This document shows, piece by piece, positions 1 through 16,869 of a DNA stretch of 64,000 nt (positions are counted from its first letter, which is position 1; every line of letters starts with the position of its first letter). Below the pieces are notes generated by a model that did not search any database, was not told where the DNA came from, and saw nothing but the letters and a program-made list of their open reading frames with translations. A program made the position numbers and the translations under genes. The stretch covers positions 434,001 to 498,000 of the forward strand of contig BCGN01000009.1 in the NCBI GenBank assembly GCA_001599295.1, in the 5' to 3' direction. The stretch comes from Sporopachydermia quercuum (Eukaryota; Ascomycota; Sporopachydermiomycetes; Sporopachydermiales; Sporopachydermiaceae).

Positions 1-1
1 T

Positions 2-187
2 GACAGAATTTTATCTTTCTACCCGAAACACTTTTCGTCGGGAAAAATTTTAATCGGTGTTTTAGATCCAATAGAAACAAAAGGTTTAACTAAGGATGAT
101 GTGAATGATTTAGTAAAAAGGACTGAAGAGGCTATGAAGAAGAAGCTCCTAGAATTGAATGAAATCTTGAAGAAGAAGGAGAATTAG
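2..187 (+). CDS. SLC1: SLC1-like 1-acylglycerol-3-phosphate acyltransferase, C-terminal fragment
   Basis: Partial gene running in from the left edge; 61 codons remain before a TAG. The peptide segment ILIGVLDPIETKGLTKDD and the following charged helix match the region after the catalytic domain of yeast Slc1 (VRILKPISTENLTKDKIG in S. cerevisiae). Slc1 adds the second acyl chain to lysophosphatidic acid in the ER and lipid droplets. The catalytic motifs lie outside the window. The protein would end in a lysine-rich tail, but a second frame stays open past the stop to about position 272 and reads EEGELDKGFIIPLYDNRKQ, so a one-base assembly error or a real frameshift near 175-185 may have shortened the tail. 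The family call rests on one short conserved block. Confidence 0.6.
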   Translation, partial: DRILSFYPKHFSSGKILIGVLDPIETKGLTKDDVNDLVKRTEEAMKKKLLELNEILKKKEN

Positions 188-2597
188 ATAAAGGGTTTAT
201 TATACCTTTGTATGATAACAGAAAACAAAAAACTAAAAAAGCTAGCATGAATTTAGAAGAAATGGGACAATAGTTATGTATTCAAAGATAGGTTTAGTGG
301 TNGCAATTGGGCAGTACAAGTACTCTTCTCTTATGGAACGGACCTGTCGTTCTTTTGGGTGCGACTTTGATGACCTAAATGCATTTCCGGATATCATGAA
401 CAAAATTAAAACCAGATTAATGTATCGTGATGGAATTATATTACAGACTGTTTGTCGCTCTGTATGGGTATCGTCTGATCTAGGATCCATTTGATAACGC
501 ATATACATCGTATGAGCTAGGGATTGTTATGTTTAGGAGGACATCNGATATAGAACCGATTTTATGGAATCAGCTCTGGTTTTCTGAACTGTAAATGTTG
601 GAACCCATTTCATTTTGTAACAAAGGAGATCTTTAGAACATTTCAATCAAATACCCCCAGCGTATAAATATATAAACAGAAAACTCACTACTTTCCATTA
701 AAAGGCTTCTCTCCTAACTTCATATCTGTCATAAGAAAGGGCCTGTCCTTCTAGATCTTAAACTGATGAACTCCACNTAGGTTACTAGATTTTATCTTGA
801 AAATAAGAACTTAGTCTACATTTCCAACTTTTTCTTGTCATCAGAGAACAGTCCTTCATAACACCATAGTAATATTAGTAGCAGTAGTGAAATACAATTG
901 TCTATTCAACAATACAATTCTGTCATGCCGGTAGAACGAGTACCAATTAACTAAAAATTATCCATTCAATCTACAGTGTAACATTTCACAAACATTGGAA
1001 TTAGTTTTTACATTTTAATGCAAACAAATAACCAAAAATAATAATAACCCTTTTCTCAACACATCAACACTCCTTTCTATTGTCCCTTATCGCATTGTTC
1101 TCCAAATAGAAGTAAACCGTTTGTTAGTGACAACTATTCAAGGGTATTAAAATAGAGTTTCATAGATGCTTTAAAAGTTTATCCATTGGGAAATAGCTTA
1201 CTTTATTCGTAAGATTAATCCGTTTACGGTTTACCAATACTTAAGCAAGGAATGAATGGCTCGCTGGTTGATAGTTTGAATGAAGATCGGAGTCAAACAT
1301 ATGATGCAAATGACCAGGGTTTAGAAATCCAATGGAAATATATACTCCGAATTTAGCAGTTTAATTAATTGGTACACGAAGACAAATGTGAACTTGGTTT
1401 ANCTTCTTCAACTGCTTTGCGCGCTTGACTGGGTCGTTATATCTCAGCAGACGTTCCTCTATCATTCATATTTGGATCAGATTCTACTTCCCATTAACTG
1501 AACTCACTCTGTCTAGTCAATTTTTAGTGATTGTTCCATCTTAGAGTAATTGAACATTCTAATTCTGAAGCCATCGTTTCTTCTCTACAATATCTGCTGA
1601 AATCTGTCAATATTCAATCAATCTTGCATGAATTTGCATATTTCAAACTCTATTTTCATTGCGAAGCGACTATAATTACTGTATTTGTCACTCCATACGA
1701 ATCAATGATCAACTATTCAATTCCAACATGTACCATCAAAGCATTTTAAAACAAATGAATTAGAAGCAGATCGTACTCAACTCTCACTAAATAATGTCAA
1801 TCTCCCCTTCATTTGCTCCCAACAATATCAGGAAATCTCAATTACGACCTCTCTATTACCAAATCATTAACTCGTTTGTTCTTCGTTTTTTCTTCGTTTT
1901 CGTCCTGTCATAACTCTTGAAATTCTGATTACGAAACCAAAATTAAATTTTCCACTATCCATTCCGTACATATAGAGCCAAAGAGCGAAAATATGTCCCG
2001 CATCTTTCACTCCTCATTATTCCTACTGATTTTTCCCGTATTATCAAATTTTCAGCTTGCAATAAACATCATTTAGTTCTTTTTCCTCTGTCTCCCACTC
2101 CTACTCTTACTCTTACCAGGCAATGATTCCCTGGACTTTTGGCATTACCATAGTTCTCTATCAGGAACAATTGGGATATAAATTTTCCCCGCCTGTTTGA
2201 AAACCTAAATAAACCCTTCGGTACAGGTTTGCTAAAATATGGCAATCATTACCGCAATTAGCATCAAAAGTTACATGCATACTATTTTTCGCTCTCATTG
2301 ATTATATAAAGTATCCTTAGGCCATTCANTCATTTGCCTTGTCCTTTTAGTTACGATAACGATGTAGATATAGATAAAAGGAAGAAGAAAAAGAAGAAGA
2401 AGAAGAANCATCCATAAATGTCGTTGAAGATAGTTTGTTGTAGGCTTGAAGCATAAATATAGACGGCTTATATCTGTTTGAATTTATTGATTGGTTGGTT
2501 TTAACATACTGTTGATTGGTATATGTATACTCATTTGTATACAAGTAACTAATAGGTTGCAAGAGAATCAGTTAATCGTTTGAAGAAAGAGATAAAG
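188..2597. other. Intergenic, SLC1 3' flank and CYB2-like 5' flank
   Basis: About 2.4 kb with no recognisable gene. Short open frames at 276-494 and 1531-1749 resemble no family I know. A GA-rich run lies at about 2379-2408, and a TATATAAA is at 2303-2310, about 290 bases ahead of the next ATG. I see no tRNA and no end repeats. Confidence 0.6.
2303..2310 (+). promoter_or_regulatory. Possible TATA box for the CYB2-like gene
   Basis: TATATAAA about 290 bases upstream of the ATG at 2598. The position fits a yeast TATA element with a long leader, but the motif is common in AT-rich sequence. Confidence 0.3.
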
Positions 2598-4184
2598 ATG
2601 GTTGGAATAGAAGAAGTGCGAAAGCATAACAAGAAGGATGACTGCTGGGTTATTATTCACAACAAGGTGTACGATGTGACAGAATTTTTACCGGAACATC
2701 CTGGTGGGTCACGTATTATTCTTAGATTTGCTGGTAAAGACGCTACTAAGAAATTTGACCCTATACATCCTCCAGACACTCTCGATAAGTATCTACCCCC
2801 ATCAAAACATAAAGGAGAATTGGTTATTCCTCCTGGTGAATCTATTACCATCACCAAGAAAAAGCCTGCTCAGGCTGCTCCTGCCCCAGTTTCCAAACCT
2901 GCTCCTTCTCCTACCCCTGCTCCTACATCCGCACCGGCAAGTGCACCTCCNGCTGATGATGACGATGAAGACGAAGAAGAAAAAATTAGAAGCAAATGGA
3001 TTGCTGCGAAGCCTCCTTTATCCCAATGCTATAATCTTCTTGATTTTGAATACATAGCTTCTAAAGTTATGTCCAAGACCGGTTGGGCATATTACTCTTC
3101 GGGTGCTGATGATGAAATCACTCTCCGTGAGAACAGAATAGCATTCCAAAGAGTTTGGTTCAGACCCCGTGTTTTAGTTGATGTTTCGAAAATCGATTTG
3201 AGCTGTACTATGCTGGGAACTAAGACATCTGCTCCTTTCTACGTAACTGCTACTGCTTTAGGTAAACTTGGACATCCTGATGGTGAAAAAGTCTTAACTA
3301 GAGCTGCTGCTAAGCATGATATAATTCAAATGATTCCAACTTTGGCATCTTGCTCATTTGATGAGATAGTTGATGCAGCAGTTGATAGCCAAACTCAATG
3401 GTTACAGCTATACGTAAATATGGATAGAGAAATCACCAAAAAGATTGTTCAACATGCTGAAAAGAGAGGAGTCAAAGGATTGTGGATCACCGTTGATGCC
3501 CCACAATTAGGACGTCGTGAAAAGGACATGAGAAGTAAATTCGAAGAAGAAGCAGCGGATATTCAAGAAGACGAAGATTCAATTGATAGATCTCAAGGTG
3601 CAGCTAGAGCCATTTCTTCCTTTATTGATCCTTCTTTGAACTGGGGAGATATTGCTTGGTTTAGAAAAATCACCAAAATGCCTATTGTTCTCAAGGGTAT
3701 TCAATGTGGTGAAGATGCTGTAAAGGCCGCTGAATATGGAGTTGATGCCATTTTATTATCAAATCATGGTGGTCGTCAATTAGAATTCGCCAGAGCTTCA
3801 ATTGAAGTCCTCATTGAAGTCATGCATGAACTCAAGATCAGACATTTAGAGGACAAACTTGAAGTATACATTGATGGTGGTATTAGAAGAGGTACTGACA
3901 TCATTAAGGCTCTTTGTTTAGGTGCTAAAGGTGTTGGGATTGGTAGACCTTTCCTCTATGCTATGTCAAGTTATGGGGATGCTGGTGTCATAAGAGCTAT
4001 GCAATTATTAAAGGACGAATTGGAAATGAACATGAGATTGATTGGAGCTAGAAGTATTGATGAATTGAATGAAAGCATGATTCAAGTTCAAGGTATTAGT
4101 TCTAGAAGTGTACCTAGAGATGTTCTATTTGACACTGTATATGAGCCTTTACTTTCTCCTGGATTCAACCAATCAAAGCTATAA
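2598..4184 (+). CDS. Flavocytochrome b2-like FMN hydroxy-acid dehydrogenase with C-terminal SKL
   Basis: 528 aa. Residues 4-85 form a cytochrome b5 domain with haem ligands His34 (in HPGG) and His57. A Pro/Ala-rich then acidic linker covers about 90-135, followed by an FMN alpha-hydroxy-acid dehydrogenase domain. YYSSG, ATALGKLG, TLASCS, QLYVN, TVDAP and the SNHGGR catalytic His390 are all present, as in S. cerevisiae Cyb2, which oxidises L-lactate to pyruvate and passes electrons to cytochrome c in the intermembrane space. The first in-frame ATG sits right at the b5 domain and a stop precedes it at 2553, so there is no mitochondrial presequence. The last residues are FNQSKL, a canonical peroxisomal PTS1. 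I infer a peroxisomal or cytosolic 2-hydroxy-acid dehydrogenase or oxidase. Substrate and electron acceptor are not known. Family call is secure; location is inference. Confidence 0.93.
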   Translation: MVGIEEVRKHNKKDDCWVIIHNKVYDVTEFLPEHPGGSRIILRFAGKDATKKFDPIHPPDTLDKYLPPSKHKGELVIPPGESITITKKKPAQAAPAPVSKPAPSPTPAPTSAPASAPXADDDDEDEEEKIRSKWIAAKPPLSQCYNLLDFEYIASKVMSKTGWAYYSSGADDEITLRENRIAFQRVWFRPRVLVDVSKIDLSCTMLGTKTSAPFYVTATALGKLGHPDGEKVLTRAAAKHDIIQMIPTLASCSFDEIVDAAVDSQTQWLQLYVNMDREITKKIVQHAEKRGVKGLWITVDAPQLGRREKDMRSKFEEEAADIQEDEDSIDRSQGAARAISSFIDPSLNWGDIAWFRKITKMPIVLKGIQCGEDAVKAAEYGVDAILLSNHGGRQLEFARASIEVLIEVMHELKIRHLEDKLEVYIDGGIRRGTDIIKALCLGAKGVGIGRPFLYAMSSYGDAGVIRAMQLLKDELEMNMRLIGARSIDELNESMIQVQGISSRSVPRDVLFDTVYEPLLSPGFNQSKL

Positions 4185-12203: not shown

Positions 12204-13424
12204 ATGGCTAAACTGTATCAATCATCAACAACTGCCCCAGTCAATATTGCTACCTTGAAATATTGGGGCAAACGTGACAAGAAGCTGAACTTGCCAACGA
12301 ATTCCTCAATCTCCGTGACCTTGTCTCAAGAGGAACTGTGTACAACTACTACTGCATGTGCTACAGAAGACTTCACTGAAGATATTTTATGGCTTAACGG
12401 CAGCAAAGAAGAAATTGACCCAAGCAATTCTTCCGATCGATTGGTCAAATGTCTGGTTGATTTACGTGAGCTTCGCAAACAGGTCGAAGAAGCATCACCA
12501 GAATTGCCCAAACTCAGCGCAATGAGGCTTCATATAGTATCGGAGAATAATTTCCCTACTGCAGCAGGTTTAGCATCATCAGCAGCAGGATTTGCTGCTT
12601 TAGTGAGAGCTATTGCTGATCTGTTTGAATTGCCACAGTCTGCTTCTGAATTATCAAAGATTGCTAGAAAAGGTTCTGGTTCTGCTTGCAGATCGCTTTT
12701 TGGTGGTTATGTAGCATGGGAAATGGGTGAACAACCGGACGGTTCTGATTCTAAAGCTATAGAGATTTCTCCACTCGAACATTGGCCTGACATGAGAGCA
12801 GCAATTCTTGTTGTTAATGCGGCTAAAAAAGACGTGAGTTCCACTTCTGGTATGCAAACAACAGTTGCTACTTCTCCATTGTTTACCCATAGGATTGAGA
12901 AAATTGTTCCTGAAAGGTTTGCTATCATGTCTGAAGCTATTCGTCAAAAGAACTTTGAGAAATTTGCTGATCTGACAATGAAAGACTCAAATGAGTTCCA
13001 TGCTGTTTGTCTTGACTCCTACCCCCCTATTTTCTATTTAAATGATGTTTCGAGGAACATCATCCGTATCATAGAAGCAATAAATGCTTCTGCTGGTAAG
13101 ACCATTGCTGCGTACACTTTTGACGCTGGTCCAAATGCTGTTATATACTACTTGAAGGAAAANGAGCCTTTCATTCTATCCGTTCTTGCCAGAGCTCTGT
13201 ACAAAAATGGAGCTACTGATGTTGTTGGTTGGACACCAGAAGCTATTTCGACAGTAAAGGACTTCAAGTTTGCTGCTGGTGTTGAAAGTAGCTTCAACTG
13301 GAAGCTGCTAGAAGGTTTGGATGAGTCCGTGAAAAGGGTTATTCTCACTAAAGTTGGTACAGGTCCTGTGAAGATTGAGAAATCTTTGGTGAATGAAAGA
13401 GGTGAACCATTGGCTCTCTTGTAA
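12204..13424 (+). CDS. MVD1: Diphosphomevalonate decarboxylase
   Basis: 406 aa, single exon, also called ERG19. It converts mevalonate diphosphate to isopentenyl diphosphate with ATP, giving the C5 unit for sterols, dolichol and ubiquinone. The GHMP-kinase fold is evident: N-terminal APVNIATLKYWGKRD, the ATP-binding FPTAAGLASSAAGFAAL loop, GSGSACRSLFGGYVAWEMG, KKDVSSTSGMQ, and C-terminal YTFDAGPNAV with the catalytic Asp region. Similarity to S. cerevisiae Mvd1 runs the full length. Several CUG codons (in DKKLNLP, EELC, DLFELPQ) align with leucines, which supports the standard genetic code. An N at 13163 falls on a third codon position. Start ATG is at the expected conserved N-terminus. Confidence 0.98.
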   Translation: MAKLYQSSTTAPVNIATLKYWGKRDKKLNLPTNSSISVTLSQEELCTTTTACATEDFTEDILWLNGSKEEIDPSNSSDRLVKCLVDLRELRKQVEEASPELPKLSAMRLHIVSENNFPTAAGLASSAAGFAALVRAIADLFELPQSASELSKIARKGSGSACRSLFGGYVAWEMGEQPDGSDSKAIEISPLEHWPDMRAAILVVNAAKKDVSSTSGMQTTVATSPLFTHRIEKIVPERFAIMSEAIRQKNFEKFADLTMKDSNEFHAVCLDSYPPIFYLNDVSRNIIRIIEAINASAGKTIAAYTFDAGPNAVIYYLKEXEPFILSVLARALYKNGATDVVGWTPEAISTVKDFKFAAGVESSFNWKLLEGLDESVKRVILTKVGTGPVKIEKSLVNERGEPLALL

Positions 13425-14577: not shown

Positions 14578-16869
14578 CTAACCTCTATACTTATACCATC
14601 TCCAGATTCTTGCTTTACAGTCACCGCTACCAGTAGCAAATAACCCACTTCCAGATCCCTCACTATTGGCAACAGAAACAGAAATAACGGAGTTTCTATG
14701 TCCTTGTAACATCAAAACAGGATCTCCACTCTTCTTTTCCCAGAAGATAACTCCACGGTCTTTGGAACCAGAAAGAATATATTCGTTATCAGGGGTAGCG
14801 CACACTGACAAAACAAAATCACGATGTCCTACATACGAAACCTCACAACGGCTAGGTTTGTTATTGCTGGTTTGAGTGCTCAAAGCAGTAGAATTGCCAT
14901 TTGAAGCTTTAGAGTTAGCTAAAGCACTTGACGACAATGACCATAGTTTCACAGTTCTATCTAAAGACCCTGAGCAAAGTTCAGAACCATCGGCAGTGAA
15001 AGATACACTGTAAACAGAGTCTTTATGGCCATCATCATTTTCAGATTCAGATTCCAGTCGTTCAACTAAGAACCCAGTAGAGGCGTCCCAAACTCTGACG
15101 GTTCTATCCAAACTTCCAGCAGCAACCAGCTTACCATCAGGAGAAACAGCAACAGTGGTAACACCATCTTCAATGCTTAAGGTCAATGTGCATTTACCTG
15201 TTTCCGTATCCCAAATACGAACAGTACGGTCACCCGATCCTGAAACAAGTGTTCTGCCATCAGGGAAGTAATCTAAAGAGTAAATATCTTGTTCATGTCC
15301 TTTGAGATACTTTATAATTCTTCTTTGGTCCAAATCCCAAATTCTAATAAGGTTATCTTCAGCCCCTGTGGCTAATCGTTTACCATCAGGTGAAAAACAT
15401 ACAGATCTAATATACAAGTCACCTGAAGATGAAACGTTGGAAACTTCGGAGCCTCCTCCTGGAGTGTTTGATTCATCCAATAACCTTGAAACCAATAGTC
15501 CAGATTCAACATTGAACACTTGGGTTGTTTTGTTACAACCAGTGGCTAAGAATTTACCGTCTTTACTGAATCTTACACAACAAACAACTGAGCTGTGATC
15601 TAAAGAATGAACNAGATTGACATCAATCTTTCTGGGAATAGCAGGGTTAAAAAGAATGTAATATTCAGCTGCTTGTTTTTTCAATTCTGCAGGGACGGCA
15701 GAAGCATCCAAATCTTGTAAGAAAGCAGGAATCTCCTTAACGGCAACTGGTGCCGAAGGAACTGTTGCTAGAGCGGTAGCTTGAGTAGTAGTTACCACGG
15801 CACTTGTACTGTTGGCAGCAGGTTCACTGTTGGCAGCCGTTTGTGGGGTATTGTTGGCATTGATCGTAGAAGCATCAGTGGCTGAAGTAGCTCCTGGAAC
15901 CGTTGCTTGTGACCCAGCTGGTTGGGATGGAGTTGCTGTAGGAGCTTGTGACTGTGGAGGCTGGTTCAACGGAGGAGCAGTTGGGTTTTGACCCAAAGTT
16001 TGAACAGGTGGTTGGGCTGTTGGTTGAGAAGGAGTAACGTTGGTGATAACGGGCTTGGCTTCTTGTAATTGAGGAGTTTGATGAACTGATGGCAGTTGAG
16101 GAGTTGCCAATGTCTTAGGGGAAGCTTCGGAGCCTGCTGGAATTAATGCAGGCATTGGAATTACATTGGCACCTGGTGGTTGAGGTAATGATTGGCCTGG
16201 AGTTAAAAGAGAGGACGGTTGTGGAGGGAAAAATTCTTTATTCTGTCCATAAACCTGTTGAGGTTGTTGAGGCTGTGGTTGTTGTGACTGAGACTGTTGA
16301 TCTGGTTGTGGTGGTAATAAAGGAACGGCACCAGCAGGACCAGGAATCATACCTCCGCTTAAAGCTGTTCCACCTGAACGTAAAGCAGGAGGGGATGATT
16401 GTTCAACTAATTTTTGTTGGTGGGCCTGGGCCTGAGCTTGAGCCTGTGCTTGGGCCTGGGCCCTTTCTCTATCTCTGGCTTCTAATTCAGATTTCAGACG
16501 ATGGATTTCCCCTTCGTAGTGTTCTTTGATTTTTCTGTGAGCCATTTCTAATTCATAGACAGTTTGTCTGATTTGTTGCATTTCGGCATTCTGTTGATTG
16601 AACTTATGGTCAAATTCATCTTTGTGCATTCTGAAAACAGATGCTTCTGAAGTAACAGAATCAAATTCGCTTTTAATTGCATCTAGAAGTTCCACAATTC
16701 TACTTTGACTCGATGCAGTTGAAGGATTTGTATTGTTTTGTTGTTGTATACTATTATTTGGACCCCCTGTTTGTTGTCCTGAAGCAGTGGTAGTTCCACC
16801 TGATCCTGGAGCAGCTCCAGCGGGTGTACTGGTAGCATTTGGGTGAATCACTTGTCGTTGATAGCTCAT
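14578..16869 (-). CDS. TUP1: General transcriptional corepressor Tup1
   Basis: 763 aa. Residues about 55-150 hold the N-terminal tetramerisation and Cyc8-binding coiled coil ([16 protein letters not shown], then an alternating Ala-Gln stretch). Residues about 155-400 are a Gln/Pro/Thr-rich linker. A seven-bladed WD40 propeller follows, including repeats ending RIWDLD, RIWDTE, RVWDAS and VKLWSL, and finishes at [10 protein letters not shown]. Tup1 with Cyc8 represses glucose, mating, hypoxic and other gene sets through histone deacetylases and Mediator. The divergent CSM1 and the following LUG1 keep the S. cerevisiae order YCR084C-YCR086W-YCR087C-A. The Gln-rich and Ala-Gln stretches are likely length-polymorphic. 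The N at 15613 is silent (CTN, Leu). Confidence 0.97.

Follow-up and report, generated by a model that had tools for sequence, protein, structure and literature searches.

A flavocytochrome b2-type gene with a C-terminal SKL

The window, the 64,000-nucleotide stretch of Sporopachydermia quercuum DNA analysed here, carries near its beginning an uninterrupted reading frame from an ATG at 2598 to a stop codon at 4182-4184, encoding 528 amino acids. The following features were assigned at this locus.

2598-4184, forward strand: putative flavocytochrome b2-type L-2-hydroxyacid (L-lactate) dehydrogenase, 528 aa, single exon (reading frame, Pfam, PDB match, alignment with S. cerevisiae Cyb2)
2610-2822, forward strand: cytochrome b5 domain, residues 5-75, with haem ligands His34 and His57 (Pfam Cyt-b5)
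2823-3011, forward strand: interdomain hinge, Pro/Ala-rich then acidic, about residues 76-138 (sequence; poor alignment to the hinge of S. cerevisiae Cyb2)
3057-4085, forward strand: FMN_dh catalytic domain, residues 154-496, with Tyr165, Tyr272, Asp300, Lys366, His390 and Arg393 (Pfam, residue map on S. cerevisiae Cyb2)
4173-4181, forward strand: codons of the C-terminal tripeptide SKL, a canonical PTS1 (sequence)
2553-2597, forward strand: in-frame TAG (2553-2555) followed by a stretch without ATG up to the start codon (sequence)

The Pfam search detected Cyt-b5 at residues 5-75 (8.7e-27) and FMN_dh at residues 154-496 (1.2e-118), and this arrangement of an N-terminal Cyt-b5 and a C-terminal FMN_dh domain in one chain is that of flavocytochrome b2. 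The best match in PDB was S. cerevisiae Cyb2 (ScCyb2; 1ltd/1fcb, E about 4e-164), a lactate-oxidising enzyme known from mitochondria, with 265 identical residues among the 477 aligned. The b5 domain was identical to that of ScCyb2 at 40 of 71 residues and was the top-scoring of the 16 Cyt-b5 places that the profile search reported in the genome, and thus shows no sign of decay. His34, His57 and His390 aligned with His43, His66 and His373 of ScCyb2, the first two of which we take to be the haem ligands and the third the catalytic residue. When a chosen set of 25 haem-ligand, active-site or interface positions was compared in the alignment, the window protein was identical to ScCyb2 at 23 of them; the exceptions were Tyr97, which falls within the hinge, where the alignment is poor, and Ser228, presumably an FMN contact, which corresponds to Pro247. 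By this comparison, the active site belongs to the dehydrogenase (Cyb2) type. The window protein therefore resembles ScCyb2 (PDB 1fcb/1kbi) in domain order, haem ligands and overall identity, and is unlike it in having no presequence, an SKL end, a longer Pro/Ala-rich and acidic hinge, and the Ser228-to-Pro replacement. The sole N inside the gene, at 2951, occupies the third place of a CCN codon, so the residue is Pro under any base. An AlphaFold model based on three aligned rows had a mean pLDDT of 60, with values below 50 at the C-terminus, and was set aside as evidence on the exposure of the tail. These features suggest an L-lactate or L-2-hydroxyacid dehydrogenase of the flavocytochrome b2 family, the substrate being presumed from the conserved residues.

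The initial annotation of this locus had described a b5-plus-FMN protein starting directly at the b5 domain behind a stop codon at 2553 and without an upstream ATG, a C-terminal FNQSKL, intact His34, His57 and His390, and a hinge unlike that of Cyb2, and all of these points were borne out by the sequence, the domain search and the alignment.

Upstream region

No in-frame ATG was found between the in-frame TAG at 2553-2555 and position 2598, and the open stretch between them reads VARESVNRLKKEIK. The protein thus begins at the b5 domain, and a presequence of the S. cerevisiae type for the mitochondrial intermembrane space is absent as read, which limits the designation "mitochondrial Cyb2" but not the membership in the enzyme family.

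It is conceivable, but in our judgement highly improbable, that the gene encodes an ordinary mitochondrial Cyb2 whose presequence is encoded by an upstream exon that escaped detection or is translated from a non-ATG start. The sequence AACTAATAG at 2547-2555 is similar to a branch site with an acceptor, and the 14 codons that follow are open and basic. The region scanned for donors (window 1-2597) contained the weaker motifs GTATGA (210, 510), GTATGG (462), GTTAGT (1123), GTAAGA (1209), GTAGGC (2440) and GTATAT (2519), of which GTATGA, GTATGG, GTAAGA and GTAGGC are near the consensus, as well as six Ns, and these leave a small doubt about the absence of a presequence. However, none of the consensus donors GTATGT, GTAAGT, GTACGT and GTGAGT occurred within window 1-2597, and a presequence exon was judged unlikely for want of such a donor in the 2.6 kb upstream of the gene. 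The three introns placed by eye in the second b5-FMN gene of the genome (L002, described below) had the donors GTATGT, GTATGT and GTAAGT. This second gene, as spliced, likewise begins at the b5 domain, and a hidden presequence would moreover leave the SKL tail without explanation.

FMN_dh and D-lactate dehydrogenase families in the genome

The profile search with PF01070 detected four places in the genome, of which three were FMN_dh genes (the window gene, L002 and L003), while the remaining one (L014) was rejected as it resembled IMP dehydrogenase by eye. L002 (contig 2, 1171198-1172616 plus flanks) is a second b5-FMN_dh gene which, when spliced by eye at three introns, encodes 522 aa starting with MIRITQEEL at the b5 domain and ending with LYKL; it was identical to ScCyb2 at 16 of the 25 compared positions, with Leu230 and Phe325 changed. 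L003 (contig 4, L003:865-2037) encodes a b5-less protein of 390 aa, nearest to lactate, hydroxyacid and glycolate oxidases, and ends with VTKL, in which TKL is an atypical PTS1-like tail. The frame was closed shortly ahead of the ATG in both genes. None of the three FMN_dh proteins had a presequence as read (for L002 as far as the placed exon 1, for L003 leaving aside upstream exons), and the PF01070 search of the assembly found no conventional mitochondrial CYB2. The identity of the FMN domain to that of ScCyb2 was 57% for the window gene, 42% for L002 and 36% for L003, making the window gene the Cyb2-like member of the family.

Six places were detected with PF02913, corresponding to four high-scoring genes of the D-lactate dehydrogenase (D-LDH) family and two more distant flavoproteins. 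None of the four ended with a PTS1, and in three of them (L037, L038 and L040, the remaining gene being L039) the start looked by eye like a basic presequence. The two distant members (L041 and L042) were FAD-oxidase_C flavoproteins of 600-odd aa with the PTS1-like tails NKL and NRL. Judging from the tails and starts of the FMN_dh and D-LDH-family genes, peroxisomes would be the site of L-lactate oxidation, and mitochondria the main site for D-lactate.

SKL tail and peroxisomal proteins

The window protein ends with FNQSKL, and SKL fits the PTS1 pattern [SAC][KRH][LM]. The probability of an SKL tail calculated from the residue frequencies of the window ORFs was 5.4e-4 per protein, and one of the 20 ORFs of at least 150 aa in the window ended with SKL. 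As about three such tails are expected by chance in a proteome of 6000 proteins, the tail on its own is suggestive and the genome context matters.

The genomic controls were taken from the assembly to which the window belongs (16.4 Mb, 12 contigs), with tails read in open frames. The profile search found a Pex14_N domain. One catalase (L031) ended with AKL and the other (L032) had no PTS1 as read; likewise, one malate synthase (L035) ended with SKL and the other (L036) had no PTS1 as read. The single acyl-CoA oxidase found (L033) was also without PTS1 as read, and an MFE2-like MaoC-domain protein (L063, contig 2) ended with PKL, an atypical PTS1. Six places belonged to the acyl-CoA-dehydrogenase family: L054 and L057 had mitochondrial-like starts and no PTS1, L056 ended with AKL, and L058 (contig 3, open frame of 709 aa) ended with SHL, which fits the PTS1 pattern; L055 was the same gene as L005, a b5 fusion ending with AKI, and L059 was the acyl-CoA oxidase L033 again. 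Since a PTS1 was missing in one of the two catalases, one of the two malate synthases and the sole acyl-CoA oxidase found, tails are an incomplete guide. According to the available part of a study on Histoplasma (PMC13343957), both PKL and AKI are functional as PTS1 in that fungus.

Comparison with known systems

Yarrowia lipolytica has two Cyb2 homologues, which were described in 2020 (PMC7609957, available in part). Both contain Cyt-b5, YlCyb22p (YALI0E21307) ending with SKL and YlCyb21p (YALI0D12661) with VKL, and both were suggested by inference to be peroxisomal. L-lactate was no longer used when YlCYB21 was deleted, and deletion of YlCYB22 had no effect on the growth on lactic acid; mitochondrial signals were predicted for YlDld1p and YlDld2p. 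As far as these descriptions go, S. quercuum is similar in having two b5-containing homologues with PTS1-type tails, here SKL and YKL, and D-lactate enzymes predicted to be mitochondrial. In Histoplasma capsulatum, the available part of the 2026 study (PMC13343957) reports that Cyb2 (G217B_8374) was enriched in the peroxisomal proteome and that its fluorescent fusion was punctate, the puncta being abolished by loss of Pex5 or by a C-terminal tag. Compared by description, this protein is like the window protein in being an L-lactate cytochrome c oxidoreductase by name, and its peroxisomal, Pex5-dependent location parallels the one predicted here, but it is described there as having no recognisable PTS1, unlike the SKL-ended protein found here. 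The CYB2 of Komagataella phaffii is described as active in the intermembrane space of mitochondria, and it was reported to have a role in the oxidation of glycolate (PMC10791038, available in part). The peroxisomal glycolate (hydroxyacid) oxidases of plants and animals share with the window protein the FMN_dh domain and, as predicted for the latter, the 2-hydroxyacid substrate and the peroxisomal location, but have no b5 domain; L003 is the genome's own match to that type. With the precedents from Yarrowia and Histoplasma in print, the window gene is a further example of a kind already known.

The prediction of the initial annotation that the protein is sent to peroxisomes is supported by the SKL tail, the absence of a presequence and of an upstream consensus donor, the PTS1-type tails elsewhere in the genome, the presence of Pex14 and the published parallels. 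In contrast, its notion that a mitochondrial presequence had been "swapped" for the tail found no support. A presequence was found, as read, in neither b5-FMN gene of the genome, and PTS1-ended homologues exist in Yarrowia, so the direction of change is unreadable from the window locus. The suggested check for a normal CYB2 beside the SKL gene, conducted by the PF01070 search of the same genome, returned no presequence-bearing homologue, leaving a swap as a recent event unsupported.

S. quercuum would thereby be a further fungus with seemingly peroxisomal L-lactate oxidation, in which a presequence-bearing mitochondrial Cyb2 was not found by the profile search. The textbook arrangement of S. 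cerevisiae is thus not to be assumed in other yeasts, for example in the engineering of strains for lactic acid.

Flavoenzymes linked to cytochrome b5

At least five b5-flavoenzymes were recognised among the 16 reported Cyt-b5 places, several other places being read as short exons only. The five were the window gene (SKL), L002 (YKL), L005 (AKI), L006 (KLDL) and L023/L048. L005 (L005:184-1836, reverse strand, contig 4) encodes a cytochrome b5-acyl-CoA dehydrogenase fusion of 550 aa ending with AKI. The b5 piece L023 lies 440 bases before the reductase piece L048 on contig 12, with the gene end unread, and we take the two together to be probably a nitrate reductase. L006 (L006:1447-2937, reverse strand; also L060; contig 2) encodes a flavoprotein resembling fumarate reductase, with the b5 domain at its C-terminal side and a KLDL end, read without its N-terminal exons; a similar fumarate reductase-b5 fusion was reported from microbodies of Penicillium (PMC7348727, available in part).

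The b5-acyl-CoA dehydrogenase ending with AKI is the most novel lead from the genome. In the literature sampled, part of which was available as excerpts, no description of a peroxisomal b5-acyl-CoA dehydrogenase was found; acyl-CoA dehydrogenases with PTS1-like tails are described in Ustilago, the available part of that source making no mention of a cytochrome. It is a speculative idea, to which we attach little probability, that b5-tethered flavin dehydrogenases for lactate (SKL) and acyl-CoA (AKI) exchange electrons at the level of b5 in the peroxisomal matrix, possibly with the fumarate reductase-b5 protein as an O2-independent sink. With such an exchange, if true, peroxisomes would contain an electron-transfer chain that is small and soluble.

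Apart from these flavoenzymes, L027 and L030 were two large open frames that resembled chitin synthase and contained a b5-type domain; by eye, myosin-like sequence was present upstream in L027.

Proposed role and electron acceptor

Reading the sequence data as a whole, we consider it reasonably probable that the window gene encodes a b2-family L-lactate (L-2-hydroxyacid) dehydrogenase which enters peroxisomes through the Pex5/PTS1 route. The conserved residues suggest that FMN would be reduced by L-lactate; electrons would leave mainly to O2, either from the flavin or via the b5 haem, yielding H2O2, which the AKL-tailed catalase (L031) would remove, and pyruvate would exit toward mitochondria. 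Separate FAD enzymes would serve for D-lactate, and at least three of these have starts resembling those of mitochondrial proteins.

Concerning the acceptor by itself, O2 with clearance of H2O2 by the AKL catalase is the reading that we tentatively favour, at a little less than an even chance, and the corresponding proposal of the initial annotation appears plausible. O2 is favoured because cytochrome c is not expected in peroxisomes, where to our knowledge none is known, and because a 2009 paper was reportedly titled "Yarrowia lipolytica, a producer of L-lactate oxidase". The active site, which by alignment is of the dehydrogenase kind, counts against it. The positions of Glu63, Asp72 and Glu237 of ScCyb2, presumably cytochrome c contacts, are still acidic in the window protein (Asp54, Asp63 and Glu256 in the alignment), so reduction of cytochrome c in vitro would be unsurprising. 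The earlier statement that the b5 domain cannot meet cytochrome c would stand only if import is complete. The dispensability of the SKL paralogue Cyb22 on lactate in Yarrowia implies that lactate may not be the main substrate, provided that the window gene is the counterpart of Cyb22. The haem domain is intact, yet cytochrome c is not known to occur in peroxisomes, which raises a clear question about electron acceptors there. Sulfite oxidase of plants, a peroxisomal enzyme, lacks a b5 domain, and by comparison the intact b5 domain kept in the window protein is the more interesting.

The retained b5 domain, with both ligands kept and the best score in the genome, also fits a peroxisomal enzyme that delivers its electrons via the b5 haem to a protein acceptor, such as a b5 protein, a membrane-bound b5 system or a fumarate reductase, instead of O2. 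The b5-acyl-CoA dehydrogenase ending with AKI and the fumarate-reductase-like b5 fusion in the same genome agree with such a partner, as does the fusion in the Penicillium microbody proteome according to the available part of a review (PMC7348727). We nevertheless regard this alternative as rather unlikely, since none of the 11 NAD_binding_1 (b5-reductase type) places had a PTS1 in the open frame, although two of them are fragments without the gene end, and the genome's own fumarate reductase-b5 protein ends with KLDL.

A dual or mainly cytosolic enzyme, with weak use of SKL or a division of the protein between compartments, appears less likely still. Chance alone would place SKL at the end of about 5e-4 of proteins, and the -PRL tripeptide of a Histoplasma catalase gave a partly cytosolic signal in the available account (PMC13343957). 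SKL is, however, the canonical strong form of PTS1, and the homologues of Yarrowia and Histoplasma point to the peroxisome in the parts of the reports at hand (PMC7609957, PMC13343957).

Other observations in the window

Scattered N bases numbered 63 over window 1-64000, approximately one per kb, and some were located within genes. CTG codons in the relatives of mevalonate decarboxylase and Tup1 at window 12204-13424 and 14578-16869 were found at positions that we take to be leucine in these proteins, and a CTG-to-serine code is thus unlikely here.
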